In this document: positions 2,271 through 50,774 of the stretch, one piece after another
Position numbering within the stretch: position 1 is the first letter of the stretch
Layout: each line of letters begins with the position of its first letter
The notes under the pieces: generated by a model
Seen by the model: only the letters and a program-made list of their open reading frames with translations
Database searches by the model: none
Told to the model about the DNA's origin: nothing
Source of the DNA: Buxus sempervirens
Taxonomy: Eukaryota; Streptophyta; Magnoliopsida; Buxales; Buxaceae
NCBI GenBank assembly: GCA_947561395.2
Contig: OX387186.1
Coordinates: 39,017,220-39,081,219, forward strand
DNA: 64,000 bases
Direction of reading: 5' to 3'
Program-made: the position numbers and the translations under genes

Positions 2271-2752
2271 GAATTTCCAAAATTTACACTTTTAGCCTAG
2301 ATTGAACTGCCCTTTGTTTTTATTAAAATCCAACCTATGTGTAAGTGAGGGTTAAGTGTCTAGGAGGTGTTCCAACTGGAAGTATCTCAAAATTCCAAAG
2401 AACAAAGATTTTGGGTACGTTTTGCCCAAGAAGGTCTTAGACAGAGATTCTGTCCCAGATTACTGTAGAAATAGGATAACTTGATTCTACCACCTCAAAC
2501 ACTTTCTAAATAACCCTTAGAAGTAGAAGTCAAGAACCAAAACCAAGTTGTTCAAGTATCCAAAGAGTTGAGGCATAGGTTGCCCAAAAGAGTCATGAAA
2601 TGTAGGATTTCTGGAAAAAACCAAACCTTTATCATTGACTATCAATGTGAGTACACCATACCTGAAATTATGGGCTTCGGCTTGGTATTATACACATAGT
2701 ATAAAGGGCATTGGACCCGTATTTGTAAGTGTGAAAACTCACACTCCTATTA

Positions 2753-3759
2753 TGGCAAATGTTTGACAAATTATGTCTTCTAATGAAGCTTCAAGATGTG
2801 CAGATTAAACAATGAAAATTCAGTGAATTTAGTAAAGAAGAAGAAGTTGATGCCACCACACAGCTACCACGCTGCTGCCACCCCGCTGGCAGCGCATAAG
2901 TGAATTAGTGTTTTGAAAGAAAGGTCCGTGCACATGCCGCTTACTCTCCCGCTAGCAGCTCGCTAGCAGCGCGCTTTTAACTGATTCAACTTACTCTGAG
3001 CGGGACTTGAGTTCGCTTCCAGCCGTCTACATCGATCGCTTCACGACGCCACCAGCGCTCGACGCGATCTGAGTTTTATTCTTTAAATAGACGTGTTGTA
3101 ATTTTTAATTGTGACTTTTGTCTTTGGATCATTTTGATTTCGAATCTTGAGGTGTTTGAGATTCGATCAAATCTTCTTTAGAGAGTCGGCGATCGAGTGA
3201 GGGGGAGATCTGAGATAGATCACCTGGAATTGAAGTTAGAGGATTCTTCTTCAATTCGGAACTTCATCTGATCGTGTGATCGCCTGGACTGGTGATCGGC
3301 CTTGATTGATGCGTAGGTGGATTCCTACTGCATTGGATCGTCTCAGTGGATTCTGAGGGGATTGCTGCGATCTGGATTGATCGTGTTCTGCAGCTTGTGG
3401 ATTCAAGTTGTGTTGCAGTTCGTGGATTCAAACTGTGGATCACTGGTGAGTGATTGTTTGCGATCTGGACTGATCGTGTTCTGCAGCTTGTGGATTCAAG
3501 CTGTGTTGCAGTTCGTGGATTCGAACTGTGGATTGCTGTTGAGTGAGTCAAATTGTAAAGGTTAAGTATGTACTCCTTTGTAATTGTCTTTTCATTCAAT
3601 AGTGGATTTCGAAGGGTTAGTCGCCTCATATAGACTCGAGGTTTTTCCTGGATCTGGATCCAGGTTTCCTCGTATAATTCTCTGTGTATTGTTTCCGTAT
3701 TGTTCAATTCTGAATTGTTATAGATCGTGGACCTATAGAGTAGTCCTCTACTCTTTCAG
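2753..3759 (+). mobile_element. Probable copia-type solo LTR nested in LTR A
   Basis: A segment of about 1.0 kb with different composition interrupts the GGGC-N4-GCCC array of LTR A. TATTA flanks it (2748-2752 and 3760-3764). Removing it brings the array unit at 2706 to 74 bp from the unit at 3792, about two normal periods, which supports the boundaries. The left end is TGGCAAATGTTTGAC. The right end reads CTCTTTCAG, so the usual CA terminus is off by one base. It has no coding capacity. The ends are less certain than those of the other LTRs. Confidence 0.55.
3366..3551. repeat. 93-bp tandem repeat, two copies
   Basis: Copies at 3366-3458 and 3459-3551 are nearly identical; each begins TGCGATCTGG and contains TGTTCTGCAGCTTGTGGATT. 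The short plus-strand ORF here is just the translation of this repeat. Confidence 0.85.
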
Positions 3760-3791
3760 TATTACACTTAATATGAGTTGCACGATAATGA

Positions 3792-4043
3792 GGGCATTGG
3801 CCCGTATTTCATTTGCACCACCTCAAGGGCTTTGGCTCGTCGCTTGTAACATGAGATGAAAGGGCAATGGCCCATGATCATTAATCATAAATGAAAGGGC
3901 AGTGGCCCGTTATATTGATATTGAAAAGAGGGTAGTGGCCCCAAATCCATGAGTAATGAATGAGGGCAGTGGCCCCAATGACATTGAGATGTATTGAGCA
4001 GAGACAGTGGCCCAAGATTGACTCGAGTAAGGCCATGGGCTAC
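3792..4043 (+). repeat. GGGC-N4-GCCC mini-hairpin array of LTR A
   Basis: Units start at about 3792, 3826, 3862, 3897, 3930, 3964, 4003 and 4031, spaced about 34 bp apart. Most read GGGC-(ATTG, AATG or AGTG)-GCCC. One earlier unit lies at 2706, beyond the nested insertion. Unlike the arrays of LTRs B, D and E, the arms here hardly vary. Confidence 0.75.
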
Positions 4044-4724
4044 CCTTGAGTATTTTCCGTGCAAGAAGGCATGAGGTATTGATCATGAGTAATTGACCAG
4101 TGAGTTTTGGTTGGTTATTGAGCGGTTCATCTCAGTTGGGGTAGTGGACCCTTGTTCCTCCCAACTTGGAGATAGAGAACTAGCGTCCTCCACTCAAGCT
4201 TGGATATTGATGTGTTATTATTTTGCACTTGGTTGCCATAATTGTGGTGAACTTGATAATGAACACACCTGCATAATGAACCTTAAGGTTTGGATCCGTA
4301 GTCTTAAATGGGAACGTTTGTATATATATGACATGGCTAGTTGTTCTTGTACTGTGACTGCTCTATTGTGATATCATCCTGGCACCAGCATCATCAGTGG
4401 CCGATGCCCACTTGCTACGGGGAATCAGTAGTGGATGCTTGTATGTCAAGGGGAATCGGCGTAGATGCCTAGCCACCATGTGGAATCGGTGAAGCTAGAT
4501 GGGGCCATGTGTAGTATATATAAACATCCTAGATAACAAGTGAAAAGTTGAATACATGATTGCTATTAAATGGATTATCTATACACTGAGGCACATGCAT
4601 GCACTACTGTATGACACATGAGATGCCGTGGATTTTGTAGTATTAGAACTACCCGCACGTCATGGTTTATCGAGAGATATTTGTATCAACTGTGTTTTCA
4701 CCAATTCATGCATGTGTTGCTTAT

Positions 4725-18846: not shown

Positions 18847-18942
18847 CTCCATGATGGAGAGGCCTTCCATGAGGGAAGTGCTGCAACAATTCCCTTTCCA
18901 CCATGAGGGTGAGGTCACACGAGTATTTCCGCCATGAGGGCG
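18847..18942 (+). repeat. Covarying mini-hairpin array of LTR B
   Basis: Four units share an ATGAG/ATGAT loop but have different complementary arms: CTCC/GGAG (18847-18859), CTTCC/GGAAG (18864-18878), CACC/GGTG (18899-18911) and CGCC/GGCG (18930-18942). Confidence 0.8.
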
Positions 18943-21779: not shown

Positions 21780-22081
21780 CGTAAAATCCTGAATTTTAAT
21801 AAAATTAAAATTCAGATTTTATGGTAGATGAATTTATTTAATTGATAGAAAAATGTCAGAATTTGAGAAAAAGGAGTCAAGCCAGGGATTTTTTGTCGAA
21901 CCGAATGGGTTGCTTGTATTTAAATAGGTTTGAGATATTGCTAAGCTTTAATTTGGTTGTTTTAGAGTGGTTCGTTGGTGTGGCATGCCGGATATCTTAG
22001 CTAGTTAAGTGTGCTGGTGCAGGGAGTTTGGTGAAGTGTAGTAGCATAGGATCATGATTTAAGTTGGTTCCTGGCGGCAGC

Positions 22082-22089
22082 TATATAAA
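22082..22089 (+). promoter_or_regulatory. Candidate TATA box of LTR C
   Basis: TATATAAA about 300 bp into the LTR. The position fits a U3 promoter; there is no other evidence. Confidence 0.4.
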
Positions 22090-24699
22090 CAAGTGGTTTA
22101 GTTCGTTTGTTCATTTGGCACTCGAGCGACTGAAATGAATCTCAGAGAGAAGGAGAAGAAGGAGCTAGGGTTTCTGGACCAGAATTGGAGAATTCAAGAG
22201 ATCAAAGAGAAGTTGTTGTGGCCGTTCAGTTACAGTTCACAAGGAAGGAATTCTCTTGCGGCAGTAGTTGCAGATTTCGTTAGGAGCTGTGTTGTTCATC
22301 AAATTCGATCTAAACTCCAGATGAAGTCAATTAGAATGGAGTTACTCTCACCTGCAGCAACATTCTAGGATTTGTCAAGAGCAGATCTGAGATCTAATTT
22401 CTTCTTATCTGGAGTGAAGCAAGTTCAGAGGAAGGTTGACGGCTGGGTTGCTGTTGGGCTGTTGAGGTGTTGTTGGTTGAATTGAGAGGTTTAGGGCTGT
22501 GATTAATCTACAAACAAGTAAGTAGCATCATTTATTTTAGTTTTGAATGATCTATTTGAGGCTTTGAGTTGTTATAATGGAATGTGAAATCTGAACCCTG
22601 TTTTAACATGAAATTGGCGTTTGATATAGTAGAGAATGTTTCCATGTGTTAATTCAATTCGAATACAGGTTAAAGTTAAGTTTAAAGGTTGAGGATAATG
22701 TTGGAATTGGTTTGGAGGAGATTGGTTAGATAAGTCAAGGTGTTTTGATCTAGTCGAAATCGAGCTGGAGAAAAAAAAAAGACTTGGCACTAAGCAAAAC
22801 TGGTTGGTGCCAACCTCTTCAGAGGTCAGCGCCAGCTATATGTTTCCTAACCAGTTTCGGCATGTTGTGGTAAAAACAGTATTTTATGCTTTTAATTCAA
22901 AGTTGTTAGTTTAGGTAATTTAATTAAATTTTATTGATAGTATAAGAAGGTTATTGGTTGACTAATTGCATAAGTTCGTAGAAAGATAGTTTAATGGAGA
23001 AATGGACTGTAAAACCCCGAATTTTCAGTAAAAAATAAATAAATAAAATTTAATACAAATATTTGGAGTGTTAATGAATTTGTCAAAATAAATTGGGGAT
23101 TTAATATAAAGGAATGATTTGGGGTACTTATAATTCGTTAGGGGATGTATAAGGGACTAATAATGACAAAGAGAATAAATTTGGAAATTTTGGAAGAAAT
23201 TGAATGCGTAGATGTGAAAATATCAAGAGAAGGGTATTTTGGTCAATTCACATTAATTATTGGTAGATAATTAAACACGTTAATTAAATTAATATTATTA
23301 GACTTGAGAAATAATGATAGAATTAAGTTGGAGCTAGATTGCCTATTAACGATGACATTTAAAGTTTAATAAGTAGAATAAGGGCATAATTGTAATTATG
23401 TTTGATTTGAAGCCATAAGTTGAGGATTTAGGAATTTTATTGAGGGATTTTTAATTAAAATTATAGATGATCACACTAATAGAGGAGATCTGAAGTTTGA
23501 CGCAGATCTGACCATTGGATCGCGAGATATCGAGTTAAGTATGGATTAACGGTCCTTATTAAGTCTAATGGGTGGATAAGTATGGAACATGATCCTAGGG
23601 AGATGCATGGGATCAGATGAGAATAAAATAGGGTTTTTATTTGGGGTTGATCGTATGCCTTGTTTTGGGTTTTTGACGGCTGAAGGGAAGAATAACGAAA
23701 GAGAGAGAGAGAGAGAGATCGAGAGGAGAAGAAGAAGGAGGAAGAGAGCGTATCTCTGGTTTCTCATCATTCCCGGAGTGTTTCTTGCCTGCGAAGAGGA
23801 GAGGAAGTCGTTGGTTGGAAGAAGAAAGGATCTTGAGCGAACAGAGGGAGGTAGCACTTCTTTTTAACGCTTGTTTTGTGTTTATGGGATTATTCAATTC
23901 GAGTTGCATGATCTTTTATGTTGTAAATATACGTATATTGTCTGATATTAATTTTATATGAATGTTAAAAGCGATTAGAACACAAAAAAATGATTTTTAG
24001 AAACTCGGTTCGTCGTTTTGGTTAGAGCGCCGAGCGTGCCTGTACTCAGCGCTCCTCGGCGATGTTCAACGTTCGTTGAAAGATTTCGAGTCCCCGAGAC
24101 TGCCGACTGACAGTCGATCGGAGCTTGTTTTATTTAAACCAACTAACGTGTTTTCGTAACGCTGAAGAGCGCCGACCTGCTCAGCGATCGTAGGCGATCA
24201 ATGTTTTACATGAATTTAACGCTTGTAATCATTACAAGCCTATTTTCTAATAACTTTTATTAAATTTTAGTGAACAACACCAAATTGCAATAACTTCTAT
24301 TTTAACTTTATTGAATAATACTAAAATGTAATAATTCTTATTAAACTTTATTGAACAATACCAAACCTTAATAACTTTTGAAATCTTAAACCAAACCTCA
24401 ATTAAAACCTATTACTTTAAAAACCACCTACGTACCATATTAAACAAATAAATTTCTTTTATAATAATACATTACTAGACCCGCATTCTAGCGTACGTGT
24501 TATGAGTTCAATTCCCGGTGTAATTAAATATCCGTCTAACACTAAATCAGGATGTCACGCTAAACTTATTTAAATGTATTGAACAAAATATTAAGTTTAA
24601 TAAATTGAGGAACTATTTTAGAACCAAACTTGAATTATCAATTTAACATGAACCTAATATGTTATAAATAATATTGGAATTGAGAATTATTTGTGTATT

Positions 24700-25331
24700 G
24701 GCCTGGTGGCCAGTTTTATTGATTACCTGCTTGGTGGCAGAGATTATTACCCACTTGGTGGTGGAGACCCAACCTGCTTGGTAGCAGAGATAACCCGTTT
24801 GATGACGGAGACCTTAACCCGTTTGGTGACGGAGAGCCTAACCCGTTTGGTGACGGAGACCCAACCTGCTTGGTGGCAGAGATTACCCGCTTGGTGGCGG
24901 AGACCCTAACTAGTTTGGTGACGGAGACCCAACTTGCTTGGTGACAGAGATAACCTGTTTGGTGACAAAGACCCAACCTGCTTGGTGGCAGAGATAAACC
25001 GCTTGGTGGCGGAGACATTACCTCTTGCGGGAGAGACATATTTCCTCCTATGGGGCAGATGTATTTCCGATGGATTGCATTCTACAGGAGAAGTACCTCA
25101 TGTGAGGGAGATGTAATTATGCGTGATTGCATTCCACACGGGGGATGGGTGTATGAGTTACTACTGAATGGTGAGGAAGCTATCTCCTGCGGCAGAGGTA
25201 GATGCTATGTGTTCACATCCTGCGGTAGAGTTATGCTGTCTCTTGCAAGGGATACCTGTAGTCATAGAGATGTGCATTCTCCTACGGAGTTAGTGTGGGT
25301 ACTATGTGCTTACGTCTTGCGGCGGAGGTAG
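24700..25331 (+). repeat. Covarying mini-hairpin array of LTR D
   Basis: Thirteen units with loop TTGGTG (or a one-base variant) start at 24731, 24755, 24778, 24799, 24823, 24847, 24870, 24891, 24915, 24938, 24959, 24982 and 25003, spaced 21-24 bp. Flanking 4-base arms are perfectly complementary in ten units and use four pairs: CTGC/GCAG, CCAC/GTGG, CCGT/ACGG and CCGC/GCGG. A GGCC-TGGT-GGCC unit precedes them. From 25021 a looser set follows (CTCC-TAC-GGAG and similar). Confidence 0.85.
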
Positions 25332-25762
25332 GCTACTACCTGAAGGTGGATTTTTACTATTGATTATATGATTGATCGGTTTAGACATATCTAACGAGAT
25401 TGTTTATTTAAATGAAATGCTTAAATGACATAATTGTACAGAATTGCTAAGACTTAGTTTAAATTGTTAAAAATTGAATATTATGGAATTATAAAATAAG
25501 GGTTAAATTGTTCTTAAGGAAATACAAAATAAAATAAATTGAAATCAGGTACTTATGACTTATAATACATTGTTCTAATAATTGAAACGAAATTTACATA
25601 ATAAACTTTATTTATTTAGAGCACTGTTTTGAGAATGATTTTATATTGTGATTAATCGTTTACCTTAGCGACTGTGATTACTCAATTATTTTACCGAGCA
25701 TGAAACTACTGTTATTTTCCCTATCTATATAAATTGTTTTCTACATGCATAGTGTTACCTAT

Positions 25763-25780
25763 TGAGATATTCGTATCTCA
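25763..25780 (+). other. Conserved 3' hairpin of LTR D
   Basis: TGAGATATTCGTATCTCA, identical to LTR B, 371 bp before the LTR end. ACATGCAT lies upstream and a pyrimidine tract ending in ACAG downstream. Confidence 0.85.
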
Positions 25781-27151
25781 TCCCTACTTTATATTCTAAT
25801 TTACAGGTCATCTTGGAAAGGACACCATGGGTTAGACTGATAGTGGGTTGAAGTCTAGAAAATCCTGAAGACAAGTGGAGGACATTTTATATAGTTGTAT
25901 TTATCTTTTTGGATTAATAGTAGGTGATCTAGAATGATTTATGAGTTAGTTAAATTTGTAGTTGCCTTTCATTTGATTAATTAATGTAATAGGATGATTC
26001 AGTTTCTAATAAATGACTTAAGCTTCCTAGCACTCTGATAAATCTTAGTTCTTTATATCCTTATATTTGAATTGATTGTAATGTACCACAAGTTAATGCC
26101 TTGATTCGAGTCAAAATGAGAAAAAAAATGACCCGGATTCGGGACGTTACATGGACGATGCGCTGAGTGCTGCTTATCTCCACAGAGGTTGGCACCCAGC
26201 ACATTTCCAACACTCTTGTATGGGTTTTAAGTTCCATTTGTGGGGGAATAATTAGGGAGTTAACTAGGATTTATTAAGAGACTGTTGGGAAATAAGAGAT
26301 GCTAGATTTGAGAATAGATTTCAGGTATTATGGTTTGAAAAATCAGAAAACTATTCAGGTTAATAAGTGAAGTGGTCTTATGAGTTCTGGAATCTGTCCA
26401 ACACCTGTAATTTTAATTTGTAAAACTTATTTGGGGAAATTACTTAAAGGATAAATTAGAGATGGTGAAAGGGGATTGGAGTGTAATAATAGATGTTGAA
26501 TGAGTGTATAAAAGAGGGGTATTAGTCCAATAAGCATGGTGAATGTTTCAGTTTTTGATATAGTTGAGCCATGTGCATTAAAGTCAAAGTAAAGATCATT
26601 GTGAAGCTTTCTTTTAAGTTCAAACCACATCTAAGGTTGCTTGGAATCATATTAGAGACTAATTAAAAAAATGAAATTTAACTAAATGATGTGAAGCTGT
26701 GGAATACATATAATGGAATTAGAAGGTTAATAGAAATATTTAAGAGTTTATTTTAAGATAAGTGAACTAAGGATAATTCTTGTGGGAAAAGAACCTATAT
26801 TTTAAGTTTTAAAAGAGTAGAACATGTCTAGATTAATAATAAGATTAAATTTTGAGATTTTGCACTTGAAGATGCCGGTTTAGCTGTGATTGACAGTCTT
26901 TCTAAATTTGAACTACAAAAGGGACTTTTATGCAAAATTATAGAAAATAGGTTGTTGACAAATTATTTTGGTTTAATAAGGTTATTCAGTTTAAAGTTCT
27001 GATTTTGTGAATACGGTTGAACCTTTATTATTAGTACTGGATCCAAACTCAGATTAGACAGGATTGTTATGATTATGAAATCTTATCGTCGAACTGGTTT
27101 TATACAGATTTTTACGAAAGAGGATTTTTAAATTGATTATGAATGATTGGT

Positions 27152-27272
27152 TTTCCTCCATGTACTTGGAAAGACGGTTTGTGATGCCCATGTACTCGGG
27201 GATGCCCCATGTACTTGGGATGTTGATACCTCTGTGTACTCAGAGATGTCCCGTATACTCAGGATGATATGA
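27152..27272 (+). repeat. TGTACT-loop mini-hairpin array of LTR C
   Basis: Units share a core near ATGTACT with changing arms: TTTCC/GGAAA (27152-27172), CCC/GGG (27187-27200 and again at about 27206-27219) and CTCTG/CAGAG (27230-27245). A further unit CACTG-TGTATT-CAGTG lies at 27427-27442, and weaker TGTACT units run to about 27570. Confidence 0.65.
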
Positions 27273-27862
27273 TTGAGATTGAGATGAGTTATGCTTGCTG
27301 GATTTCACGGTTGGTTTTGGTTTTAGAGTCTAGTGGGCATAGCTCGATATGGATCCATGTTTGGAGCTAGTTAGTAGAAAGGATTGCTCTTTGCTAGTTG
27401 TAATACTTTGTTCACGCACGCGTTTCCACTGTGTATTCAGTGAGGCCTGATCGTGTACTCGACTGGCTACGGCTATCCCTCATTTTATCGTGTACTCGGA
27501 CTGTGACTGGATTAGTACATGCCAACCATCACTGTACTGGGTGGGTTCTCTCGCAATAAGACGATGATCGTGTACTCAGCATTCGTACCTAAGCCGGGAG
27601 GTGGCATAGTGGACATTGGCATTACACTAGTTAAAGTCAATCTTATTTCATGAGTCCTGCTGTGACTTATCAACTACTGATTTGATGATACAGATTGGTT
27701 GGTTATGCTGGATTATTCCTATTATCTTGTACTGATCGATGGTTACTGATGGATTACTCGGATTATTCAGAACTGATGTGTTATCACTACTGTTGCATGA
27801 TTTACAATTGTATCATATTTTAGAACGGTTAAATCGTATTTGAGCATGCATGTGCTACTTAC

Positions 27863-27880
27863 TGGGATATTCGTATCTCA
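27863..27880 (+). other. Conserved 3' hairpin of LTR C
   Basis: TGGGATATTCGTATCTCA: the same hairpin with one G-T (G-U) wobble, 249 bp before the LTR end. GCATGCATGTGCTACTTAC lies upstream and TTTGTTTTGTTTTCAG downstream. Confidence 0.85.
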
Positions 27881-28134
27881 TTCCATTCTGTTTTGTTTTG
27901 TTTTCAGATTCTGGTAAAGACGACACCAGTGGGTATATGCTTGGTTAATGTGAGTTAGCTTTGGTTATAGTATTTTTATTGTTGAGCTTGGGGTTATAGT
28001 TCACTCTGATTATCCAGTTATTGATTTATTCATGTTTTCCTTCACTCTGATATTGCAATCTTGGGTTATATATTAACCTTCGGAGATAAGTTACGGTTTC
28101 TCTACGTAACTTGGATTCGAGGCGTTACAGAAAC

Positions 28135-29130: not shown

Positions 29131-29158
29131 AAAATAAATTTTGAGGTATAATGGGTCT

Positions 29159-29235
29159 GTCCGCATACCCTGTGCGGACCAGACCTGTCCACACATACAG
29201 TGTGAGCAGGCCTGATCTGCACTGTGTATGCGGAC
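29159..29235. repeat. 28-bp-period palindrome array 1 of LTR K
   Basis: Three 21-bp imperfect palindromes start at 29159, 29187 and 29215, exactly 28 bp apart. The first is GTCCGCA-N7-TGCGGAC. Confidence 0.85.
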
Positions 29236-30534
29236 TCGACCTGGAAACCCAAAAACGCCAAAACGGCTGGGGGTTCCGTTCACCTCCTTCCCTGGTACCT
29301 TTGCGAACTTCTGTGGATTTCTGAGCAGACCCATAGTGGTTTTAATGCCTTCTTTTTGCTTAAAACAAACCTCTTTCATGGTGCTTTTAGAATGGGGATG
29401 ATCCTTGATTTTAAACAACTACTTGAAGCTTGAAACAGGGACTCTAGGGGGTCCCTGCTTGGTGCCAAAAATGATCTCCCTCCATTCCCCCATTAGGGAA
29501 TGAGATAGAAGGCCCTAAAGGCCTAGATCACACCATTCGATCAATCCCTCAAACACCCATTCCAACCATCCATGAATCAGCACATGAAACTATTAATAGT
29601 GACACATATGCATGAAGGTGGCTTGGAAAGTATGCGAAAACAGTGGGTGGGTGAGGTGATCATGCACACCAATCAATAGTAAAGACATGATAAGAGAAAT
29701 GATGCCTACTACTATTCCTATAAGATATAGAAAGGTAATTGAAAGAGAACCAAATCTTACCTTAAAAATGCTACTCATGTGTGTGTATAGTGCTTATTTT
29801 GATACTCATAAGAAAAAGATAGCATGCTAAACAGTGCATGGAAATGCATGATTAGGTGATTGTAAGATGCTCTTGTGTATGGCCATAGATGTAAATGAGA
29901 CATATGCAAAACCAGCAAACACATGAAATAATAAACAACTTATTCTAGTTGAAAGGAAGGAGGGGGAGAAAATTAGGGGTACAATGGATAGACAAAGGAG
30001 GACAGGGCCTCCTAAAGAAATTACAGCAAAGACATAACATGCTAGTTTGCTTAGATGATACGTTTCTTTACCCTATAAAGATAACCCTCCTCCCATCTTC
30101 GTATGGAGTTTCCCCCTTACCATGGGGACTCCAACATCATGCAACAGAAGGAATAATGGTGAGAAATAATATTATAAAAAAATGAGTTGAAAGCAACCAA
30201 AGGAAACATGCTTATAAAATCTTTATCTCAACATATATTGAATGAAAAGTGACAAAGATTCTCACCTTGGGCTTGTTTTACTAATTGGATGTGTGATAAC
30301 CTCTAGGTAGATGTGGACAGCACCCTGGGACCTCCCTTGGTTCACAAATATGGCCTCTTTCTTGTCTTCAAAGGAGTAGAAAAGAAAAAGGAGATGAAAA
30401 GGGTGATTAAAGGGGTAAAATAGGAATTTGGTAGAAGTATAAGGGTTAGAAAGGGTATAGATGCTCACCGGTTACAGGGGAGTTGGTGGGGACGAAAGGG
30501 ATGGCCAAGCCTTGGAAATGGGGGTTGTGGGCCC

Positions 30535-30558: not shown

Positions 30559-30744
30559 ATCCACAGATAGTATGCGGATTGGCCTGATCTGCACTTAGTA
30601 TGCGGATTGGCCCTGTCCGCATACCAAGTGCGGACGAATTATCCTCATGCACAATTGCGGCAAAATCTACCACGTAGCATTGTGGATAAGGATGGATCCG
30701 CATAGTATGTGCAGATGAGGCACGTCCGCACATACTATGCGGAC
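30559..30744. repeat. 28-bp-period palindrome array 2 of LTR K
   Basis: Seven related 21-bp units start at about 30559, 30587, 30615, 30641, 30667, 30696 and 30724, giving steps of 28, 28, 26, 26, 29 and 28 bp. The best are GTCCGCATA-N3-AGTGCGGAC and GTCCGCA-N7-TGCGGAC. The middle two are degraded. Confidence 0.82.
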
Positions 30745-31471
30745 CCGCACGTTTTTATTGCGCGGAACTCAAATTTCTTCCCATTTTGACGAACTTTTTC
30801 AGATTTTATCTGATTTTTTATTTATATAAAAATGTAAAAATCGAGATATTTTTATAAAAATAAATATTTTATTCCCGATTTTTATTTGTTTTGTCATTTT
30901 CTACTTCTATGCCACATGGGCAGCTTTGAAACTTTCACCCGTCATAACTCTTTCATCCGATGTCCGATTTTAGCAAACTCAATCGCGTTGGAATCAAGTC
31001 GAGATTCTCTATCCACTAAGCTAGAGTTTGGTAGCAAATTCAGCTTTTTATCATAAGTGCAAAACTGCATCCCGGAATCCGGTTTTGTTCATATCTTCTT
31101 CCTCGGGACTCCGATTCTGTAACGCCCTGGATCCGTGTTGTTCAATAAAGATATAACACGTCTCACGGAGTGTTAGGTAAGGATCTTAATCATTTGTGAT
31201 CACTGGATAATCACCTAACTAAAACATATCAGAGTGCACAAAACATACTTTGTCTAAGAATTCAATATTCAAAACTTAACTAGGATTCAAATGGTACAAC
31301 CTCAATAGACTTTATTACACCTTAATCATTCAATTTATTCAAAGTTCAATTCAAAATAACCTACAAGTCTAAGGAATGTAATAGTAGTCTTCCTCCCTAT
31401 AAGTCTCAGACAGTCTACCCCAATAGTCGCCTCACCTCGAGTATCTGAAAAACAAAACAAAAACAACAGAG

Positions 31472-31724: not shown

Positions 31725-31845
31725 TTCCGACCTACTCAGGGTTTTGGAAACTCTGAAATGACGGTTTACTCAGGGTTTCGTCATCCAATGCCAGCCTACT
31801 CCCCGGGTTTCGGCATTGACAACCAGGCCTACTCAGGGTTTCTGG
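31725..31845. repeat. Covarying mini-hairpin array of LTR E
   Basis: Four units share the core TACTCAGGGTTT (the third has CC inserted) at 31733, 31767, 31797 and 31830. Each is bracketed by a different complementary pair: TTCC/GGAA, ATGACG/CGTCAT, CAATGCC/GGCATTG and CCAG/CTGG. Confidence 0.85.
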
Positions 31846-32467: not shown

Positions 32468-32720
32468 ATGCGCTGACCTCCATCGCAAGGCGCAAGGTCG
32501 GTGGACAGGTCGTGGGTTAAAAAAATGGGATGCGCTTACTTAAAAATGAGTGGGCGCGAGATAAGCGTGAGGTAGGCGCGAACTTCGCGCACGCTTCGCG
32601 CAAAAAGAGCGGGTATAAGTTAAGTCCACGCGAGCTAGGCGCGAACTAAGCGCGAGCTCGACGGATAGAGATCAATTCCTTGCGCTCACTACTTGCAGTT
32701 GGTGCCAGTTAGCGCCAACT
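32468..32720. repeat. GCGC-rich palindromic block of LTR E
   Basis: Dense GGCGCGA, AGCGCGAG, TTCGCGC and GGCGC words, many self-complementary, in an otherwise AT-rich LTR. Confidence 0.6.
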
Positions 32721-34524
32721 TGGCGGATACTAACATGTATTTCCGACTCTCTGTTATTTCTAGATCTACACCACTAGCCGAACTTTTTCTCTCTGTAACA
32801 ATTTCTTTAGTCTCCTAATATCCCCAGAAGATATTTAAAACACTTTCAAAATTATTCTAACCACATTTTTATTTATCTCATTCAATCTTATAGAGAAAAC
32901 TCACACTCGGACTGTCTTCTTCCCGAAAACACAGAAAACATATGCATTCAGACTAATCTCACGATTCAATACGAAAACCCAGTTTTAAAACGATGCTACT
33001 CACCTCTTGCACGCTTATATCCCAGCAACAATAATTCTCGAACCACGGCCGATCACCAACAGTTGTCCGCGTGTTTGCTAACGCCGCCCAGATGATCCTC
33101 TTGTCGCAAGAGGAAAAACCCTCTGAATCCTTGATCACGAACTGTGAGACATGGGAAAAAATCAATTCAATGGCTTCCTAAATCATCACACGGGATTGGT
33201 TAAAAACAAAGAGTCGCCACCATTCTGTTTAGGTGTGAATGGACACCAAAATATCAAATAAGCACAAAAAGGTAAATTTAGGGTAAAAATAACCCTCTAA
33301 AAAAAAAGCCAGAGATAGGTAAGGGGATTAGGTTATGAACAGGGGAAGGTGTTAGGCACCCCTATTCATCCACACAAGGTGGTTGCCAGGTATTGTTCAT
33401 GTTAAAATAAAGGAAAAAGGGTTGCTATAAAAATCATGAAAAATCACAAAAAAGACAAAAGTATATGGTTTTTTCATACAAATAGCCTGATTGATCCAGA
33501 ACTTTCAAATATGATCATAGCATTCCTAGGGTTTCATGATCAAAATAAAATTGAGATAAAACCAATTTAAAGTGAAAACTTCAAAAATCTGGCTTCAAGT
33601 TAAATTCTAGAAATCTAGAAAAAATATGATTTTTATAAAATATTTCATAATTGAACTTGAATAGTCCAGGATGCAGATATAGCCCAAATTTCACATTAAA
33701 TCAAGAAATCAAAACCAACAATACTCAAGTTGATGAAGAACACCAAAAGGGGAGATCTTAGACCGTAGAGTCTTATCTCAATAATGAAAAAGGACTCAAA
33801 AACCACATCATGAAACCCTAGAAGTTACTTTCAGGCTTTTGAATCCAGATCTATCATATTGATCATGATAGATCCAGGATCTTAGCCTAAAATCACAAAA
33901 ATCACGAAAACAGTGCTGTAGGTGCAAAAGTGGTGAAAATCCAAATTTTCGAAAAAAGTGGGGATCTCATGCTATAAACATCATAGATTTATAAGATTAA
34001 TCCAGATTCAACATAAAAACCATTAAAACATGATCAGGATATTCAAATCAGCCATATCTCACAGATTAGAGCACACGGGGATCTACCCTACGGATCCACC
34101 TGTTCTCTTTTCCCCTAGCTCTCTCTTCACGTTTTACGGCTAGAGAGGATTCTTGAGGTACTTGGAGATAGGTTTGGTTATACAAACACAATCAGAGGCT
34201 TTATTCTAAGAAAAATGAGAAAAACAAATATGAGGTTCTATTCTAGGGATCCACCTGTTCCCCTTTCCCCTAGCTCTCTCTTCACGTTTTACGGCTAGAG
34301 AGACTCTTGAGGTACTTAGAGACAAGTTTAGGAATACAAGATAAAAGATGGCCTTATTCTACAGCAATAGAGATGATCCTATTACTTCTAGAATTGAAGA
34401 CAGAAAATAAAAAGGAAAAGGGACTTACCTGGATTGAGCAAGCAGAGCAGCAAGGATTCCTCTCTTCTCTTGGAGCTCCTTAAACTTCAAATTTTCGTGG
34501 CCTTTTGCTTGAGGAAAGACCCTC

Positions 34525-34532
34525 TATTTATA
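34525..34532 (-). promoter_or_regulatory. TATA box in the 3' LTR of element J
   Basis: TATAAATA on the minus strand, about 200 bp downstream (in LTR sense) of the palindrome array. The same box is at 39202-39209 in the other LTR. Confidence 0.55.
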
Positions 34533-34732
34533 GGCAAACACAGGGGCATGGTTGGTCCAAGGTTTGGCAAGATAGAGTTTTAAATTGAGTTAAACACAAG
34601 GATAATGCCCATCCATGGCCAACAAGGATATTTCGAACGAATAAAAGAGATAATTCGCTCATTTAAAGATATATTGGATTAAAGATAAAGCTCAGAAATC
34701 GAGAAAGGATAAAATTCGCACAAATCTAATGT

Positions 34733-34837
34733 GCCCGTAAATGATTTACGGTCCAATGGTGTCCGTATATGTATTACGGGTGCTGAGTGCCCGTATATAA
34801 AATCCGAGCGCGGTCAGCCCGTAAATACAATGCGGGC
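34733..34837. repeat. 28-bp-period palindrome array, left LTR of J
   Basis: CCGT of four units falls at 34735, 34763, 34791 and 34819, exactly 28 bp apart. The first is CCGTAAAT-G-ATTTACGG. The fourth is GCCCG-N11-CGGGC. Confidence 0.88.
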
Positions 34838-34928
34838 CATGCTTAATTATTGAATTTCATGCATTTTTGACCTGTTTCCAATCCCAATTAATATTTTCTC
34901 TTTTTTAGTGCAATTTGGGGTGTCTACA

Positions 34929-37819: not shown

Positions 37820-39615
37820 TGTGAGACATAGGAAAAAATCAATCCAATGACTTCATAAATCATCACACAGGATTGGTTAAAAACAAAGAGTCGCCACCAT
37901 TCTGTTTAGGTGTGAATGGACACCAAAATATCAAATAAGCACAAAAAGGTAAATTTAGGGTAAAAATAACCCTCTAAAAAAAACAGCCAGAGATAGGTAA
38001 GGGGATTAGGTTATGAACAGGGGAAGGTGTTAGGCACCCCTATTCATCCACACAAGGTGGTTGCCAGGTATTGTTCATGTTAAAATAAAGGAAAAAGGCT
38101 TGCTATAAAAATCATGAAAAATCACAAGAAAGACAAAAGTGTATGGTTTTTTCATACGAATAGTCTGATTGATCCAGAACTTTCAAATATGATCATACCA
38201 TTCCTAGGGTTTCATGATCAAAATAAAATTGAGATAAAACCAATTTAAAGTGAAACTTCAAAAATCTGGCTTCAAGTTAAATTCTAGAAATCTAGAAAAA
38301 ATATGATTTTTATAAAATATTTCATAATTGAACTTGAATAGTCCAGGATGCAGATATAGCCCAAATTTCACATTAAATCAAGAAATCAAAACCAACAATA
38401 CTCACGTTGATGAAGAACACCAAAAGGGGAGAACTTAGACCGTAGGGTTTTATCTCAATAATGAGAAAGGACTCAAAAACCACATCATGAAACCCTAGAA
38501 GTTACTCTCAGGCTTCTGAATCCAGATCTATCATATTGATCATGATAGATCCAGGATCTTAGCCTAAAATCACAAAAATCACGAAAACAGTGCTGTAGGT
38601 GCAAAAGTGGTGAAAATCCAAATTTTAGAAAAAAGTGGGGATCTCATGCTATAAACATCATAGATTCATAAGATTAATCCAGATTCAACATAAAAACCAT
38701 TAAAACATGATCAGGATATTCAAATCAGCCACATCTCACAGATTAGTGCACACGGGGATCTACCCTATGGATCCACCTGTTCTCTTTTCCCCTAGCTCTC
38801 TCTTCACGTTTTACGGCTAGAGAGTATTCTTGAGGTACTTGGAGATAGGTTTGGTTCTACAAACACAATCAGAGGCTTTATTCTAAAAAAAAGGAGAAAA
38901 ACAGATATGAGGTTCTATTATAGGGATCCACATGTTCCCCTTTCCCCTAGCTCTCTCTTCACGTTTTACGGCTAGAGAGACTCTTGAGGTACTTAGAGAC
39001 AAGTTTAGGAATACAAGATAAAAGATGGCCTTATTCTACAGCAATAGAGATGATCCTATTACTTCTAGAATTGAAGACAGAAAATAAAAGGGAAAAGGAA
39101 CTTACCTGGATTGAGCAAGCAGAGCAGCAGGGATTCCTCTCTTCTCTTGGAGCTCCTTAGACTTCAAATTTTCGTAGCCTTTTGCTTGAGGAAAGGCCCT
39201 CTATTTATAGGCAAACACAGGGGCATGGTTGGTCCAAGGTTTGGCAAAATAGAGTTTCAGATTGAGTTAAACACAAGGATAATGCCCATCCATGGCCAAC
39301 AAGGATATTTCGAACGAATAAAAGAAATAATTCGCTCATTTAAAGATATATTGGACTAAAGATAAAGCTTAGAAATCAAGAAAGGATAAAATTCGCACAA
39401 ATCTAATGTGCCCGTAAATGATTTACGGTCCAATGGTGTCCGTATATGTATTACGGGCACTGAGTGCCCGTATATAAAATCCGGGCGCGGTCAGCCCGTA
39501 AATACAATGCGGGCCATGCTTAATTATTGAATTTCATGCATTTTTGACCTGTTTCCAATCCCAATTAATATTTTCAATTATTTTCTCTTTTTTAGTGCAA
39601 TTTGGGGTGTTTATA
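37820..39615 (-). repeat. 5' LTR of element J
   Basis: Colinear with the left LTR. Its outer end is GGGGTGTTTATA (TCTACA mutated). It carries the same TATA box and palindrome array. Confidence 0.92.
39410..39513. repeat. 28-bp-period palindrome array, right LTR of J
   Basis: CCGT at 39412, 39440, 39468 and 39496. The exact 28-bp spacing is kept. The third unit is better preserved here (CCCG...CGGG) than in the left LTR. Confidence 0.88.
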
Positions 39616-41313: not shown

Positions 41314-41430
41314 ACCCTTCTACTGTAGGAGGCATACACACCTTTACCGTAAAGTATTACACATCTTTACATAGAGGATTGCACATCTCTACAACAGAGG
41401 ATTACCCATCTCTGTCGTAAAAGCTAGTAT
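41314..41430. repeat. Mini-hairpin array of LTR G
   Basis: Units include CTAC-T-GTAG near 41320, CTTTAC-C-GTAAAG (41342-41354, perfect), a wobble-rich unit near 41364, and CTCT-N5-AGAG near 41387. Arms differ between units. It is less regular than in B, D or E. Confidence 0.55.
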
Positions 41431-42089
41431 CAACTCAATCACAGGAAGCAGTATCACTCAACCGTAAAAGAAAAGCAAATAAACATCGTACCACAATCCA
41501 ATCCATAAACCATATCCAAAATTCATGATAGTAACCAAAATATCCAATTCCCATGTGAAATTCCAAGACTCAATCTCCATAACCAGGATAAAACCTTTTG
41601 CGAGATAACACATGAAATTTCTCAATTATATTCAAAATAAAGCTCCTAAACATAAATTCAATGGAAATCAGAATAAATACAATTCTAGAAAATCAGTATT
41701 CACATCTAGAGCACATGCACTAGTAATTCAAGACTTGCCTAAAGTTACCTTATTAATCCCCTTTGTTAAATTCCAATTTTCTATAATTAAGACCTAAGAT
41801 AGCAACTATTCCAATTTCTGTATTTTTAGTTCCAGCACATTCCATAGACCTAAAACATATCTTAGAAGGTGATTTTAACACATGAATACAAGTTGATATT
41901 ATTCCTAATCACTATTCCCCATAATTTGGCCCTTTTATGCAATCACCTATCTTTATGATCCCAAATTAATTAGTTTATTACCAAATTGTAGACACCCCAA
42001 ATTGCACAGAAAAAATGAAGAATAATTGGTAAAAATCATTATCTCCTTTGAAACTAGCACAAAATTTGATAAAATAAGCATGTTTCCTT

Positions 42090-42231
42090 GTATCCGACAA
42101 CTCAGGTCGGATACAAGCATACCCCTTTGTATCCGACATAAGTTGTCGGATATAAGCAAACCTTAATGTATCCGACATCATATGTTGGATACATATAGAT
42201 GCTTGTGTATCCGACCTGATATGTCGGATAC
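42090..42231 (+). repeat. 39-bp-period palindrome array of LTR F
   Basis: Four units at 42090, 42129, 42168 and 42207, each GTATCCGAC-N7-GTCGGATAC with at most one arm change. Period is exactly 39 bp and spacer length is exactly 7 in all four, while spacer sequence varies. Confidence 0.95.
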
Positions 42232-42397
42232 ATGATTTTTGCTCCAAATTAGGGTTTTCCGAGAGTTTTCACTTTTTACCATCATATCCTTCATTAAAGG
42301 AGTGGAAATCTCGGAAATAGCCTTAGGGTTAAGGTTGTTGGGCTCTAGACATTATGTTGTGTCTACCATCCCATCAACCATAACCCTAGCCTTTGCA

Positions 42398-42405
42398 TAT
42401 AAATA
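42398..42405 (+). promoter_or_regulatory. TATA box of LTR F
   Basis: TATAAATA, 167 bp after the palindrome array. Confidence 0.6.
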
Positions 42406-45400
42406 GGAGGCTCCTCTTAAGCAAATGGCCATTAATTCTTGCCAAGAACTTTTGCCAAGAAGTTGGAGATCAAAGAGCTCTGAGTGAAGAGGGGAACCGC
42501 TGCAATCTTGCTTCCAGAAGCCCAGGTAAGCCTCAAATCTCTCTTTATTTTTTTGTTTTTATATTCTAGATCTAGATCTCTTCTTCCACCTTTCTGTAGA
42601 ATAAGGCCTCTTCTATGTGTATGAAAACCCTTCTCCTACTCAAAGTACCTCGAGACTCCCCCTAGCCGTAAAACGTGAAGGCGGGATCTAGGGGAAACGA
42701 GACTGGGGATTGATCCTAGTATTAGAACCTATTTGAATAAGCCTTTTGAATCTATGAAAACTGTTTCATATTCAAAGTACGCCAAGATTATCTTGAAGAA
42801 CTGTGTTTAATGGGGAGAGAGAACTAAGGGAAACGATAATGGAATAGAACCCTAGGTTGTTCTAGAACCCCTTGATTGATATGAATGCATGTCATATGTT
42901 GTTATTGAATGGATTTTTATACACATACACACATAGCACTTGTTTTGTCGGATTTGGCTTGTATTTTGGATCTATTGTCGTCATTGTGGTAGATCTGGAA
43001 TAAATAGCCTCAAACAATTCTGGGATATTTCCTATTGATTTTCAAATTGATTTCAAGCAAGTTTTATTGAGTATTGAAGGCCTCTAGATCCAACCATCTC
43101 GATTTTTGGGCCCTTTTGCTCAATATTAGGTCTTTTTGGCATATTCTCTCCAATCGGAGAGAATGGTGAGCCAAGCTTGTACCCTATTATTTCTAGAGGT
43201 TCTTCAACACTTTTTCAAGTGATTTTGATTCATCTTACACGGATTCCACACACTGGATCACTGTTTTAAATTGATTTTACTCGAAAAGGGCTTAACTTGA
43301 CAGCAACTGTACCCCAACTTCGGACACTCGTAATTTCATCGTCCGGATGAATTTTGGAGTGATTCTAGAGCCATGGGAAAGGTGAGGCTGTCTAGTTTAT
43401 ACCTGTAAAATTTCATTAATTTCTATTATGCGGATTTTTGACACCTCTCTATCGAAGTTGATAGGTCAGTTCAGGTCTGGATACAGAACCTGTCACTTCG
43501 ACTGAGCGCCATGTGTTTGTTTTAAGTCTGATTCGAATGAGTCTTGTTTCTGAGTTTTCCTTTGGAAGTCTAGTTTCAAATCCAATTGGTTTCATAATTT
43601 TTTGACTCCATTTGTGTTGTTGGTAACAGATTTACTCAGAGCTATTCAACAACACTTTTCTGGGTAAATGTGTGATCTTCGGGGCCTGTTCGGGAAACCA
43701 CCCAAGGCACATCCGAATGAATTTTTGTATGAGGCTAGTTTCATGTGAAAGATGGCTATACATACTTCATTCCCACCAAATTTCATGAATTGATATGGAG
43801 CCGATTTTTCTAGATAATTTTCCAAAGTTGCCCACTTGCCACTTTTTACTACCTCCAACAGCACTTTTAAAAGAAGCATAACTCCTAGGATTTCAACCGG
43901 ATTTAATTGGAATTTTGCATGAGTCACTTATTTACCATAATCTTTCAAATGGATTTGGTTTGGCTCCATTTAAATTGGATTTAAATGATTTCAAGACAAA
44001 TGGCGTTATCTTTTACCGAATCTTCTGGATTTGACTCAACTTGGTTTTGTGCAACTTTTGCTTTGATTTCCATCTATTGGTGATATTCCAGAAGTGGTAT
44101 TGACATAAAAGAGGATCTGAAATTCATTTGGATTTTCATGTAAAGATGTCATACATTTGTTTTATCCTTTTTCAAGGTTTTTGATGAGTTTAGCAAGCTC
44201 TCATTTTTTAGCATGAACAACATTTGGCAACCACCTTATGTGGGTGAATGGGGGTGCCTAACACCTTTCCCCGTTCATAATCTAATCCCCTTACCCATCT
44301 TTAGATTTGATTTTCAGTAGAGTTATTTTTACTCTAGAATTTGCCTTTTAGCTCTTTTTGATTATTTTTGAATCTTTTGGTGTCCATTCACACCCAAAAA
44401 TCTGAATGGTGGCGACTCTCCCATATTTTACGTTTAGCCCGTGTGTTGATGGAGGGGAATCATCTCGGTGATTTTTCCATGTCTCACACAAATTAAATTT
44501 AGTAAATTTCTACGCCTCAATTTAGCCCTTATAAAGATGTTAGAATAATTCTATTACTAAAAAAATTATCAAACATCTTTTCCTACTTGAAAATCCTAAT
44601 TTTCTAAATTTCTGTGTATGGGCGCCTACCTTTGCTTACCTAGGTGCCCCTAAGCGCCCGTACAATTCCGGCTAAGTTTGTCAAATTTATCAAGTTCTGA
44701 TCTTGGGACTTTTTCTTTGAGTTTTACCTATTCTTAATGATTTCCTTAATATTATAAATCATACCTACATCACTCTAGATTAATTTGTGCCAATTAATTA
44801 CCATCCTATGATTATTTACATGATCAAAGCTATGTCTATTCAATACTTTTGCAAATTTCTTCAAGAACACAAAACTCTATGAAACAAACCATTCGATTCC
44901 ATGGAAATTCCTTCTCGACTAATTAAATCAAACCATATTAAATCACAGAAACCATAACCATGCAATTCCTCCAGTTTTCAAGGGTTGCTACTTGCCTCAT
45001 ATGCTAAATCCATCTTCTTTTTAGAATTCCTGAATCTGGGCCGAAATTCTGCTCCTAATCGCACCAACTTAGAGTTCTCCAATTCCAATCTCTACCGTTC
45101 AGATTGTAGTTCTAGCAATTGTGAACCAAACCTCCAAATTTGAGGTTGCTCCAACGGCTGGATTTTTCCCGGTCGTCATTTGAAGGTGGCTGGTCTGATA
45201 TCTTTGCAGCAGTTCCTTCTTCTATTCTTACCTCTCTTTTCTCTCATTATTTTCCACACGAAGATTTTCTAATTTCCCCTCTTGCTCTCCTATTTATACT
45301 AGGCTAGAAAAGTCCTAAACTAACCCTAATAAGCTCTTTTAAATTGGGCTAACCCTATAGTGGTCTAATTAAAGTGAAACACTTTCTAATTAATTCCTAC

Positions 45401-48042: not shown

Positions 48043-50774
48043 TTGATGCCCATTTCCAATATGGAATTCACAACATATCTTCTTGCTGGTCTTGGATCTG
48101 AGTATGATACCATTGTTTCCTCTCTAACAACTCGGGTTGATCCTTTGCCTCCCGAACAGATCTTGAGCTATCTCCTCACTCATGAAGCTCGTATTGCTCA
48201 TCACTCCACCCAAACAACAGATCCAACGGATATATCTGTTAATATCATTGGGCATTTCTCTTCTTCTCGTGGTCGCAGTCGTGGACTTGGCTACTATCGA
48301 GCATCTCGTAGTCGTGGTCGAGGTCACAGCATCTCAACTCCTCTTGGTGCTGTCTTCACTTCCAATCGTCCACTTTGTCAAGTTTGCTTGAAGCCTGGCC
48401 ACACAGCACTTGCATGCTACAATTGTTTTAACCAAGCCTTTCAGCCCTCTCCACCTCCTAGTTTTTCTGCTAATTGCACTTCTCTTCTATTAGCTGAAGA
48501 TCACAGCTCATGGTATCCTAATACAGCAGCCACCCATTACTTCACAAATAACTTTGCTAACCTCTCCATCAACTTAGCACCTTATGAAGGCACAGATCAA
48601 GTTCGGGTTGGTGATGGCTCCCCGCTCCAGATTCAATCTACTGGTTCTGCTTTGCTACCCACTCCTTCTGGAAATTTTCTCCTCTCAAATCTTTTGCATG
48701 TTCCTCTTCTTACTAAAAATTTAATATCTGTTCGTAAATTTTGTGAAGATTATCATGTGTTCTTTGAATTTCATGCTTCTTGTTTTAATGTGAAGGACAC
48801 CAAATCAGGTCGTCTACTCCTTCAAGGACACACTAAGAATGGCCTCTACATATTCCCACAGTCTTCTCAGCCCTCTCCATTTGCTCATGTTGGTGAACGT
48901 GTCCCACTTCAACAATGGCATCAACGACTTGGCCATCCTTCTCTCCGTTTGGTTCATCAGATTCTTTACCAGTTTCATCTTCCAACTGTTTCCACAAAAG
49001 CCTCACATGGTCTTTGTCGAGCCTGCTGTGAAGCAAAAAGTCATGCTCTCCCATATCAATTATCTCCATTTACTTCCAATTCCCCTTTAGAATTAGTCTT
49101 TACAGATGTATGGGGCCCTGCTCCTTTGATCTCTCCTTCTGGTTTTCGATACTATGTAACCTTTCTAGATGATTACAGTAAATACACATGGTTATTTCCA
49201 TTAAAGCTTAAATCAGATGTGTACTCTGTCTTCTTAACTTTCCAGAAATTGGTTGAAAATCTCTTCAATTCTCGCATCAAAACAGTGCAATCGGACTAGG
49301 GTGGAGAGTATCGTTCACTTCACAAACATTTCCTCTCTGTCGGCATTTCTCATTGCATCACTTGTCCTCATTCTCACCAACAAAATGGTGCTATTGAAAG
49401 AAAGCACCGACACATTGTTGACACTGGCTTGGCCCTTCTCTCCCAGTCCTTTGTTCCCACTCAATTTTGGCCTGAAGCTTTCCAAACTGCAGTTTATTTA
49501 ATTAATTGCTTACCCACTCCACTTCTTTCTCATCAATCTCCTTATCAGGTGCTCTTTCACAAACCTCCAGACTACTCATTTCTTCGCACCTTTGGTTGTG
49601 CCTGTTGGCCTTGTCTTCGACCTTATACTCATAGCAAACTTCATTTTCGATCATCCCAATGTGTCTTCCTGGGCTATGCACCAAATCATAAGGGCTATCT
49701 CTGTTTTCATAAACCCACTTCTCGCATGTATATATCCCGGAATGTTCTGTTTGATGAAACCAACTTTCCTTTTGCTGAACCAAGTTCCTCTATTTCTTCC
49801 CCCTCTCCCAATCTCACTTCCCTACCTTTTCCTTTAACCATGTCTTGTCCTGCAAACTCATCAAACCCTTCTACCGTTCTCACAAGGCCCATTCCTGTTG
49901 CAAGCCCATCCAACATTTCATTACAACCCACCACTTCATCTGAACACAGTCCAAGCCTACTGCACACGCCTTCATCTAATTCTCCATTATCCACTTCTTC
50001 TTCATCCCCACAACACACCTCAACTCTCACTGCACCTCCACCACTCTTACCTACACCCTCATTTCCCCCATGATCTCCTATTATCACCAGATCACGGCAC
50101 AATATTCTTCGTCCCAAACTCACCTCAGATGGGACCATACGGTGGCCACCACCTCATGCACATCTTACCAATTTTTCAGATGTCCCTGAGGAGCCTACCA
50201 GTGTTACTGAAGCTGCTAAGTATCCAGAATGGCATGCTGCCATGAATGCTGAATTTCAAGCCTTACTTTCCAATGGAACCTGGGAGTTAGTGCCCGCTTC
50301 TCCTCAACAAAACGTGATTGACTGCAAATGGATTTTTAGGACCAAGCGTCTTGCTAATGGCACCATCGAACTGCGCAAAGCTCGTTTAGTTGTGAAAGGG
50401 TTTCACCAAGAGGCCGGAGTTGATTTTACTGACACATTCAGTCCAGTAGTGAAGACAACAACCATTCGTCTCCTCTTCTCTCTGGCTGTCACAGCTCAAT
50501 GGGTAATTCGACAACTTGATGTCCAAAATGCCTTCCTCCACGGCTCACTGTCAGATGAAGTCTACATGGCCCAACCACCTGGGTTTCAACATCCGCAGTT
50601 TCCCGACCCTGTCTGTCGATTGAAGAAAGCTATATATGGATTAAAGCAGGCTGCACGAGCCTGGTACTCCCGTCTCAGCAACAGGCTTTCTGATCTTGGC
50701 TTTACTCCATCCAGATCTGACTCATCCCTTTTCATCTACAACAATTCAGGTTTATCCATTTATGTTCTTGTGTA
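48043..50774 (+). pseudogene. Copia gag-pol, first part (gag, knuckle, protease, integrase, RT start)
   Basis: One frame throughout. It begins within gag (5' truncated) and has knuckle CQVCLKPGHTALAC. The protease region has WYPNTAAT where D-S/T-G-A is expected, so the catalytic Asp is Asn. Integrase has WHQRLGHPS and CRAC zinc ligands, TDVWG, and later HQQNGAIERKHRH. RT follows, with DCKWIFRTK, KARLVVKGF, FSPVVK and RQLDVQNAFLHG. In-frame stops lie at 49297-49299 (TAG, beside the integrase Asp) and 50071-50073 (TGA, in the Ser/Pro-rich linker). The lineage looks Ale/Retrofit-like, tentatively. Solo LTR H then interrupts RT. Confidence 0.9.

Follow-up and report, generated by a model that had tools for sequence, protein, structure and literature searches.

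How can a row of short hairpins keep the same loop from unit to unit while both arms of the stem change and still pair? The question is raised by a tandem array in one long terminal repeat (LTR), called LTR D here, of the 64,000-nucleotide stretch of Buxus sempervirens DNA that we analysed and refer to as the window (C8:39017220-39081219). A sequence-only reading of the window had found four complementary arm pairs in this array and, holding that ordinary minisatellite drift would break pairing, took the paired changes to suggest selection on a hairpin or its templated copying. We followed the array through the window and through the genome (676.5 Mb, in 247 contigs).

Mini-hairpin units of the D array

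24722-25016, forward strand: D array, 13 mini-hairpin units with a TTGGTG loop and 4-base arms
24727-24740, 24751-24764, 24774-24787, 24795-24808, 24819-24832, 24843-24856 and 24866-24879, forward strand: D hairpins 1-7
24887-24900, 24911-24924, 24934-24947, 24955-24968, 24978-24991 and 24999-25012, forward strand: D hairpins 8-13
24699-24712, forward strand: hairpin TGGCC-TGGT-GGCCA upstream of the array, a possible unit 0
25016-25345, forward strand: second array of LTR D, degenerate, with a TGCG-type loop, clearer in a relative of it (L033)

The 13 units do recur every 21-24 bp, but the TTGGTG loop attributed to all of them is exact in 11, the other two having TTGGTA and TTGATG. The span first assigned to the array, 24700-25331, holds TTGGTG units up to about 25016, and its remainder belongs to the second, TGCG-type array, which is decayed; in L033 that array has TGCG or TGTG loops on CATC, CACC and CTCC stems. 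Both arms are perfectly complementary in 10 of the 13 units, as had been reported, and all four pairs are present (CTGC/GCAG, CCAC/GTGG, CCGT/ACGG and CCGC/GCGG), with Watson-Crick partners at 47 of 52 arm positions. Reshuffling the 3' arms among the 13 units matched the observed pairing in 1 of 100,000 shuffles, and the same reshuffle on the seven distinct arm pairs only matched the observed number of pairs in 697 of 100,000. Some units had been flagged as possible plain duplicates. Three unit types recur in similar order, and for this reason we reject counting the units as fully independent.

The covariation score of the 12 distinct rows (0.606) exceeded that of all 500 shuffles, and both sides had changed in three of the four pairs, as they also had in 93 of the 500 shuffles. 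With the register slid by -3, 89.6% of cells are still paired (score 0.458), so an alternative pairing around a TTG loop exists. A scan for words enclosed by complementary arms (plus strand, words of 3-12 nt, at least three different arms required) placed TTGGTG first after AT-only words, with 8 of its 44 occurrences paired (p 7e-11); the best p among 20 shuffled windows was 2.6e-6. The global fold of 24690-25030 was not more stable than those of shuffles (z 0.13 sense, -0.71 antisense). Local-only folding gave z -1.9 on the sense strand of the array and -1.3 in the D copy L022. Rfam returned 0 matches at gathering score in the whole window.

The LTR and its retrotransposon family

23008-26151, forward strand: solo LTR D, 3144 bp, TGTAAAACCCC...CGTTACA, with target site duplication TGGAC at 23003-23007 and 26152-26156

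The array lies 1.7 kb into LTR D, which is flanked by a perfect 5-bp duplication and is itself inserted in LTR C (21780-28129, duplication GAAAC). An internal region is available from the D-family copy L061 on contig C12, whose LTR is about 80% identical to LTR D and whose arrays are 4981 bp apart. Two bases past the LTR of L061 is TGGTATCAGAGC, which presumably matches initiator tRNA-Met as the primer binding site, and the purine-rich GGTGGGTAGGA precedes the next LTR. The sole open reading frame of at least 250 aa in its 1896-bp internal region encodes 399 aa matching Retrotrans_gag (5e-20) and Ty3_capsid (9e-8); a CCHC-like motif can be seen by eye in the translation, where Pfam reported no zinc knuckle. 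With its target site duplication, primer site, polypurine tract and Ty3-type Gag, the D family is a Ty3/gypsy LTR retrotransposon, and since L061 carries a Ty3-type gag, the sense strand of LTR D is the plus strand. TR-GAG elements are defined by two LTRs and a gag, with pol absent. L061, the one copy examined, has this composition and is a gag-only Ty3 element. GC-rich inverted repeats (AGCGCC..GGCGCT-like) were seen by eye about 1 kb into several LTRs, at 24025-24190, 22790-22850 and 32540-32720.

Copies of the D family and CpG decay

Thirty of 51 matches for D were taken (83-100% identity, the window's own locus included). From 28 of these loci 250 units passed the unit filter, about eleven of which are probably not true units; two loci gave none. 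Aligned on their loops and treated without a tree, as a check suggested with the original claim, the arms are mostly paired: 166 of the 250 units are perfect, or 156 of 237 with the window's own locus left out. The covariation claimed was nevertheless over-counted. Three pairs dominate (CTGC/GCAG in 72 units, CCGC/GCGG in 69 and CCGT/ACGG in 23), any other occurring in at most 8, and the fourth reported pair, CCAC/GTGG, is found in 2 of 250, one of them the window's own. It looks like a chance double CpG decay, whose unpaired outcomes CTGC/GTGG and CCAC/GCAG were seen once each; the singly decayed CCGC/GCAG and CTGC/GCGG number 8 and 7. The four pairs thus reduce to three old stem types, CTGC/GCAG, CCGC/GCGG and CCGT/ACGG, and the family's record to two old paired changes, one of which (CTGC/GCAG) is reachable by CpG decay.

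The premise that drift would break pairing need not apply to arms of this kind. Because the CpGs of self-complementary arms stand at paired positions, two of the four outcomes of double decay stay paired by chance, and therefore the D array alone is weak evidence of selection. Mismatches gave no clear strand bias of decay in the D units (44 G·U against 39 A·C, with 33 others, among 1000 pairs). An ordinary minisatellite, in which an old self-complementary repeat was amplified and CpG decay mimics covariation, fits most of this array: the doubly decayed forms, paired and unpaired, have the counts just given, and repeat copies are spaced at 92, 68 and 44 bp. CCGT/ACGG is a paired change that such decay leaves unexplained. 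Taken over all the arrays described below we think this account quite unlikely, and as a full account of the other arrays it is ruled out by their unrelated stems; for D alone it is possible.

The same design in other LTRs of the window

3278-3528, forward strand: A' array, 10 hairpins with loop TGGAYT (one TGGTGA) and 7 distinct stems
2724-3758, forward strand: A' solo LTR, 1035 bp, of a young Ty1/copia family, target site duplication GTATT, nested in LTR A
18847-18942, forward strand: B array, loop ATGAG or ATGAT; stems CTCC, TTCC, CACC and CGCC with their complements
27157-27442, forward strand: C array with loop TGTACT and as many as 7 stems among the family copies
31725-31845, reverse strand: E array, 15-nt loop AAACCCTGAGTAGGC; stems CCAG, AATGCC, ATGACG and TTCC with their complements
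41349-41415, reverse strand: H array, 10-nt loop ATGKGYAATM; stems ACAGAG, TAGAG and TAAAG with their complements in the window copy

A near-constant loop on changing complementary stems is found in five further arrays. The stems of A' are GATCGCC, GTAGG, CTCAG, CGATC, CAGCTTG, CAGTTCG and ATCAC, each with its complement, and the four stems of E are mutually unrelated. Complementary stems as dissimilar as those of A', C, E and H are what amplification and CpG decay of a single repeat do not account for. Six A' copies were drawn from the 40 best matches (99-100% identity). Four of them, L062-L065, have fewer imperfections than the window copy, and L066 and L067 show different single decays, with one unit missing in L066. 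In eight B copies, drawn from 40 matches and mostly from the less similar ones, two to four of the CTCC, TTCC, CACC and CGCC units pass the filter per copy, some being decayed. C copies were 12 of 56 matches. The original interpretation is thus partly supported: the other arrays of the window, and the genomic copies available for most of these, bear out that stems change pairwise while the loop is held.

A copy of the A' element codes for gag_pre-integrs, Pol_BBD, integrase, zinc knuckle and a Transposase_32 protein. In Sireviruses such a protein is the env-like open reading frame, and this Ty1/copia element may be Sirevirus-like. Remains of Ty1/copia pol (Pol_BBD, integrase, RVT_2) also lie at 48043-50814 and 53952-55001. 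LTR A carries, by eye, GGGC-A.TG-GCCC repeats with a constant stem at 2665-2700 and 3780-4030, between which the A' LTR is nested; a further small group, whose loops are GGGGAATC-like, lies around 4380-4500. Inserted in LTR E is an LTR pair (33143-34926 and 37820-39613, 96.7% identical) of the TGTGAGACATGG family, a solo relative of which lies in LTR H at about 42000-44490 on the reverse strand, with duplication ATTTG.

Controls for repeat structure and folding

To count the pattern by rule, hairpins close to each other were paired where their loops were alike and their arms differed at two or more of four positions, with an AT microsatellite left out. Watson-Crick complementarity gave 67 such pairs in the window, of which 27 fell in the D bin and 25 in the A' bin; a mirror rule gave 7, and mock complements 7 and 15. 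Tandem duplication alone does not yield the excess, since the repeat structure of the sequence is unchanged under the mock rules. Permuting the 3' arms of hand-listed distinct units, cut to 4-5 bp, reached the observed pairing in 1 of 5040 permutations for A', 2 of 720 for C, 34 of 5040 for D and 1 of 24 for both B and E, the minimum for four units.

The scan of loop words raised TGGATT and GTGGATTC, both from A', above shuffles, but not TGTACT (1.6e-4) or ATGAG (7e-3). When perfect stems of 5 bp or more were counted in sliding windows, the result pointed to A' at 3201-3600 and not to D, whose stems have 4 bp. Local folding on the sense strand gave z -7.8 for A', -7.6 for L033, -2.4 for C, -2.1 for H, -1.9 for both E and D and -1.0 for B. 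Six of the 8 arrays tested had an antisense z equal to or stronger than the sense value, so that folding gives no preference for the sense strand.

A predicted leader intron and its landmark hairpin

23851-25806, forward strand: predicted leader intron of LTR D, GAG/GTAGCAC ... TTTACAG/GTC, with a weak donor picked by eye
25764-25780, forward strand: GAGATA-TTCG-TATCTC, a conserved landmark hairpin a short way before the predicted 3' splice site of LTR D
19194, 27860, 4726 and, on the reverse strand, 31488: other window sites of the landmark hairpin, near a predicted 3' splice site

Six LTRs of the window share a block that starts with CATGCA and contains the landmark hairpin, in most as GAGATATTCGTATCTCA. 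In all six a pyrimidine tract follows the landmark, and then YAG in five. The stem of the landmark itself differs between families (GAGATA/TATCTC, GAGAC/GTCTC, GAGAT/ATCTC). The 17-mer GAGATATTCGTATCTCA has 4607 exact copies in the genome, and its reversed control 0. Seventy landmark loci, the first 30 listed plus 40 picked by hand, were drawn from 100 of these 4607 places, all on contig C1; a pyrimidine tract with NAG follows the landmark in 58 of the 70 (54 CAG, 3 TAG, 1 AAG), compared with 14 of 140 control stretches. Upstream, at comparable places in the six LTRs of the window, sequences resembling a splice donor were picked by eye; those of A, B, C and E are canonical GTRAG, and those of D and H are weaker. 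These signals predict a leader intron in the Ty3-type LTRs, and the arrays of B, C, D, E and H are enclosed by the predicted donor and the predicted 3' splice site.

The landmark loci also bear on the arrays. E-type units, 163 in number, occur in 50 of 71 loci (the 70 genomic loci and the window), and the E array was inspected by hand in 10 of the first 30. By the pair count described above, the 30 loci hold 49 like-loop, different-stem pairs in 20 loci, against 1 pair in 1 locus, 8 in 4 and 2 in 2 under the mock rules, counts that are not of independent events since many of these loci carry related E-type arrays.

Paired change at orthologous units

Both partners of a pair have changed at some orthologous units. 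Pair 6 of E unit 2 is A-T in 9 of 21 copies, G-T in 8, G-C in 3 and otherwise in 1; pair 3 is C-G in 14, T-G in 4, T-A in 2 and otherwise in 1. No A·C was found at either pair among the 21 copies. The covariation score of the unit, 0.218, was reached in 5 of 500 shuffles (mean 0.168), with slid controls at or below 0.089, its percentage of paired cells in 9 of 500 and its number of doubly changed pairs in 244 of 500, all of these being tree-free statistics on few independent events. Between TTCC and GAGGCC stands a C unit that reads CACTG/CAGTG in the window, as it does in 11 of the 12 C copies. Its variants are CACTA/CAATG in L117, CATCG/TGATG in L034 and CATCG/CGATG in L055, L057 and L085. 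These changes and those of E unit 2 are not of the CpG type and are unexplained by the minisatellite account. The fourth B unit, CGCC/GGCG, is CACC/GGTG in L034; this change is of the CpG type, in keeping with that account, and could be CpG decay.

A template switch inside a hairpin, during reverse transcription or DNA replication, could instead copy one arm onto the other and leave the loop uncopied, with no selected function. Retroelement reverse transcriptases switch templates often, and the process would explain how wholly different perfect stems come to stand side by side in A' and E. Template switching has been proposed to create and maintain hairpins, and the compensated stem changes described in the accessible text are like those seen here, but they concern RNA-gene hairpins and not arrays with one common loop (PMC8794818). 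The G·U states of E unit 2, common to several copies, bridge A-T to G-C and C-G to T-A, and speak somewhat against such copying. Thirty hand-picked units likewise contain six helix-internal wobbles that are G·U on the sense strand and none that is A·C, a count that leans to RNA, although it is post hoc and small and two of the six are in variants of one unit. Decayed units showed no sense-strand bias among the 652 inner pairs of the 163 E units, four per unit (28 G·U against 20 A·C). Nor does template switching alone account for a loop that stays the same across the units of a family, and we consider it rather unlikely to be the explanation.

Discussion

The reading that we favour, and hold to be about evenly balanced between right and wrong, is that these arrays act as RNA stem-loops in which the near-constant loop is a multivalent protein site and the stem is free to drift. 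In the 5' leader of the retrotransposon's transcript, a D-type array would then fold on the sense strand into a row of short stem-loops. The part recognised would be the loop, of about 5-15 nt and near-constant within a family, and the stem would need only to pair, so that it could drift, both arms changing together, as tandem duplication adds units. Many such loops would make a multivalent docking platform for an RNA-binding protein.

Because the array of the Ty3-type LTRs lies between a predicted 5' and a strongly conserved predicted 3' splice site, splicing of the leader intron would leave it only in unspliced genomic RNA. Retroviral packaging signals have the same position relative to the splice donor. 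This position, together with the coding content of L061, which is little more than a Gag with a CCHC-like motif, makes Gag or its nucleocapsid part in our view the likeliest ligand, and selective capture of the unspliced RNA would be the likeliest job. The packaging role itself, as our analysis stands, is possible but rather improbable. From one family to another the loop sequences are entirely different, and a single ligand common to all would have to possess several specificities.

We put forward more tentatively, as possible though on balance improbable, that Ty3 and Ty1 LTR elements of plants repeatedly evolved leader arrays in which a family-specific constant loop on deliberately different stems serves as a multivalent RNA address label. 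Such a label could diversify quickly through stem drift and loop change, and in Ty3-type families its place in an LTR intron would keep it in the genomic RNA. Different stems would prevent mispairing between neighbours and lower the risk of the array being deleted through repeat-driven template jumps. Little is known about how packaging distinguishes among plant retrotransposon RNAs and which cis signal it uses. The arrays can be found by an objective rule and have a comparable place in the LTRs of several families, and the RNA reading makes a sharp prediction, that the loop is read and not the sequence of the stem. A caution for other old repeats is that self-complementary arms bearing CpGs can fake covariation through methylation decay.

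Among the listed titles and opening lines of abstracts in the open-licence literature, we found no report of arrays with constant loops and variable stems in LTRs. The nearest known kinds are the boxes of Sireviruses, reportedly studied by Bousios and colleagues in 2010, and the arrays of Retand elements, and the accessible text on neither describes constant loops on varied stems. Sirevirus RM boxes (PMC2829016) share with the arrays here the repetition of short dyad-symmetric units in plant LTRs. As far as that text goes, they contain one palindrome per element with a CGG-CCG core (except in Tnd-1), thus a constant stem, and lie upstream of the TATA box, whereas here stems vary around a near-constant loop and the D array lies about 1.7 kb inside its LTR, with the TATA judged by eye.

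Sirevirus LTR palindromes have been proposed as enhancers, and the arrays here could similarly be DNA-level elements, either dyad-symmetric binding sites or cruciforms. The palindromic boxes number 8 to 18 per element in five table rows of the Sirevirus study (PMC2829016), and constant-stem arrays of the same window (42087-42240, 39408-39514 and 3780-4030) would fit such elements. A dimeric DNA-binding protein, however, should fix the arms and free the spacer, and the arrays considered here show the reverse, a fixed loop between varying arms; the Ty3-type arrays are, moreover, downstream of TATA-like sites (by eye) and inside the predicted intron. We judge a DNA-level role very unlikely.

The Retand family of Ty3/gypsy elements (PMC11963269) likewise has family-specific short tandem arrays in non-coding parts, but these lie between pol and the 3' LTR. 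The main text of that paper contains neither hairpin nor secondary structure, and palindrom appears only in its references. Closest to the RNA reading are the RGAG stem-loops of HBV, many stem-loops with a common loop motif in which the loop is the protein contact (PMC7612645, from its accessible text). Those packaging signals are dispersed over the genome, in contrast to a compact tandem leader array, and a protein contact of the loops here is something that we infer. The enod40 repeats (PMC10578108), judged from the accessible text, are a different kind of repeat and were set aside.

The window also contains the opposite pattern, in which stems are constant (for example TGTATCCGAC..GTCGGATACA) and loops change, at 42087-42240 on the reverse strand and at 39408-39514, 29150-29240 and 30560-30760. 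These constant-stem arrays sit in other LTRs or repeats.
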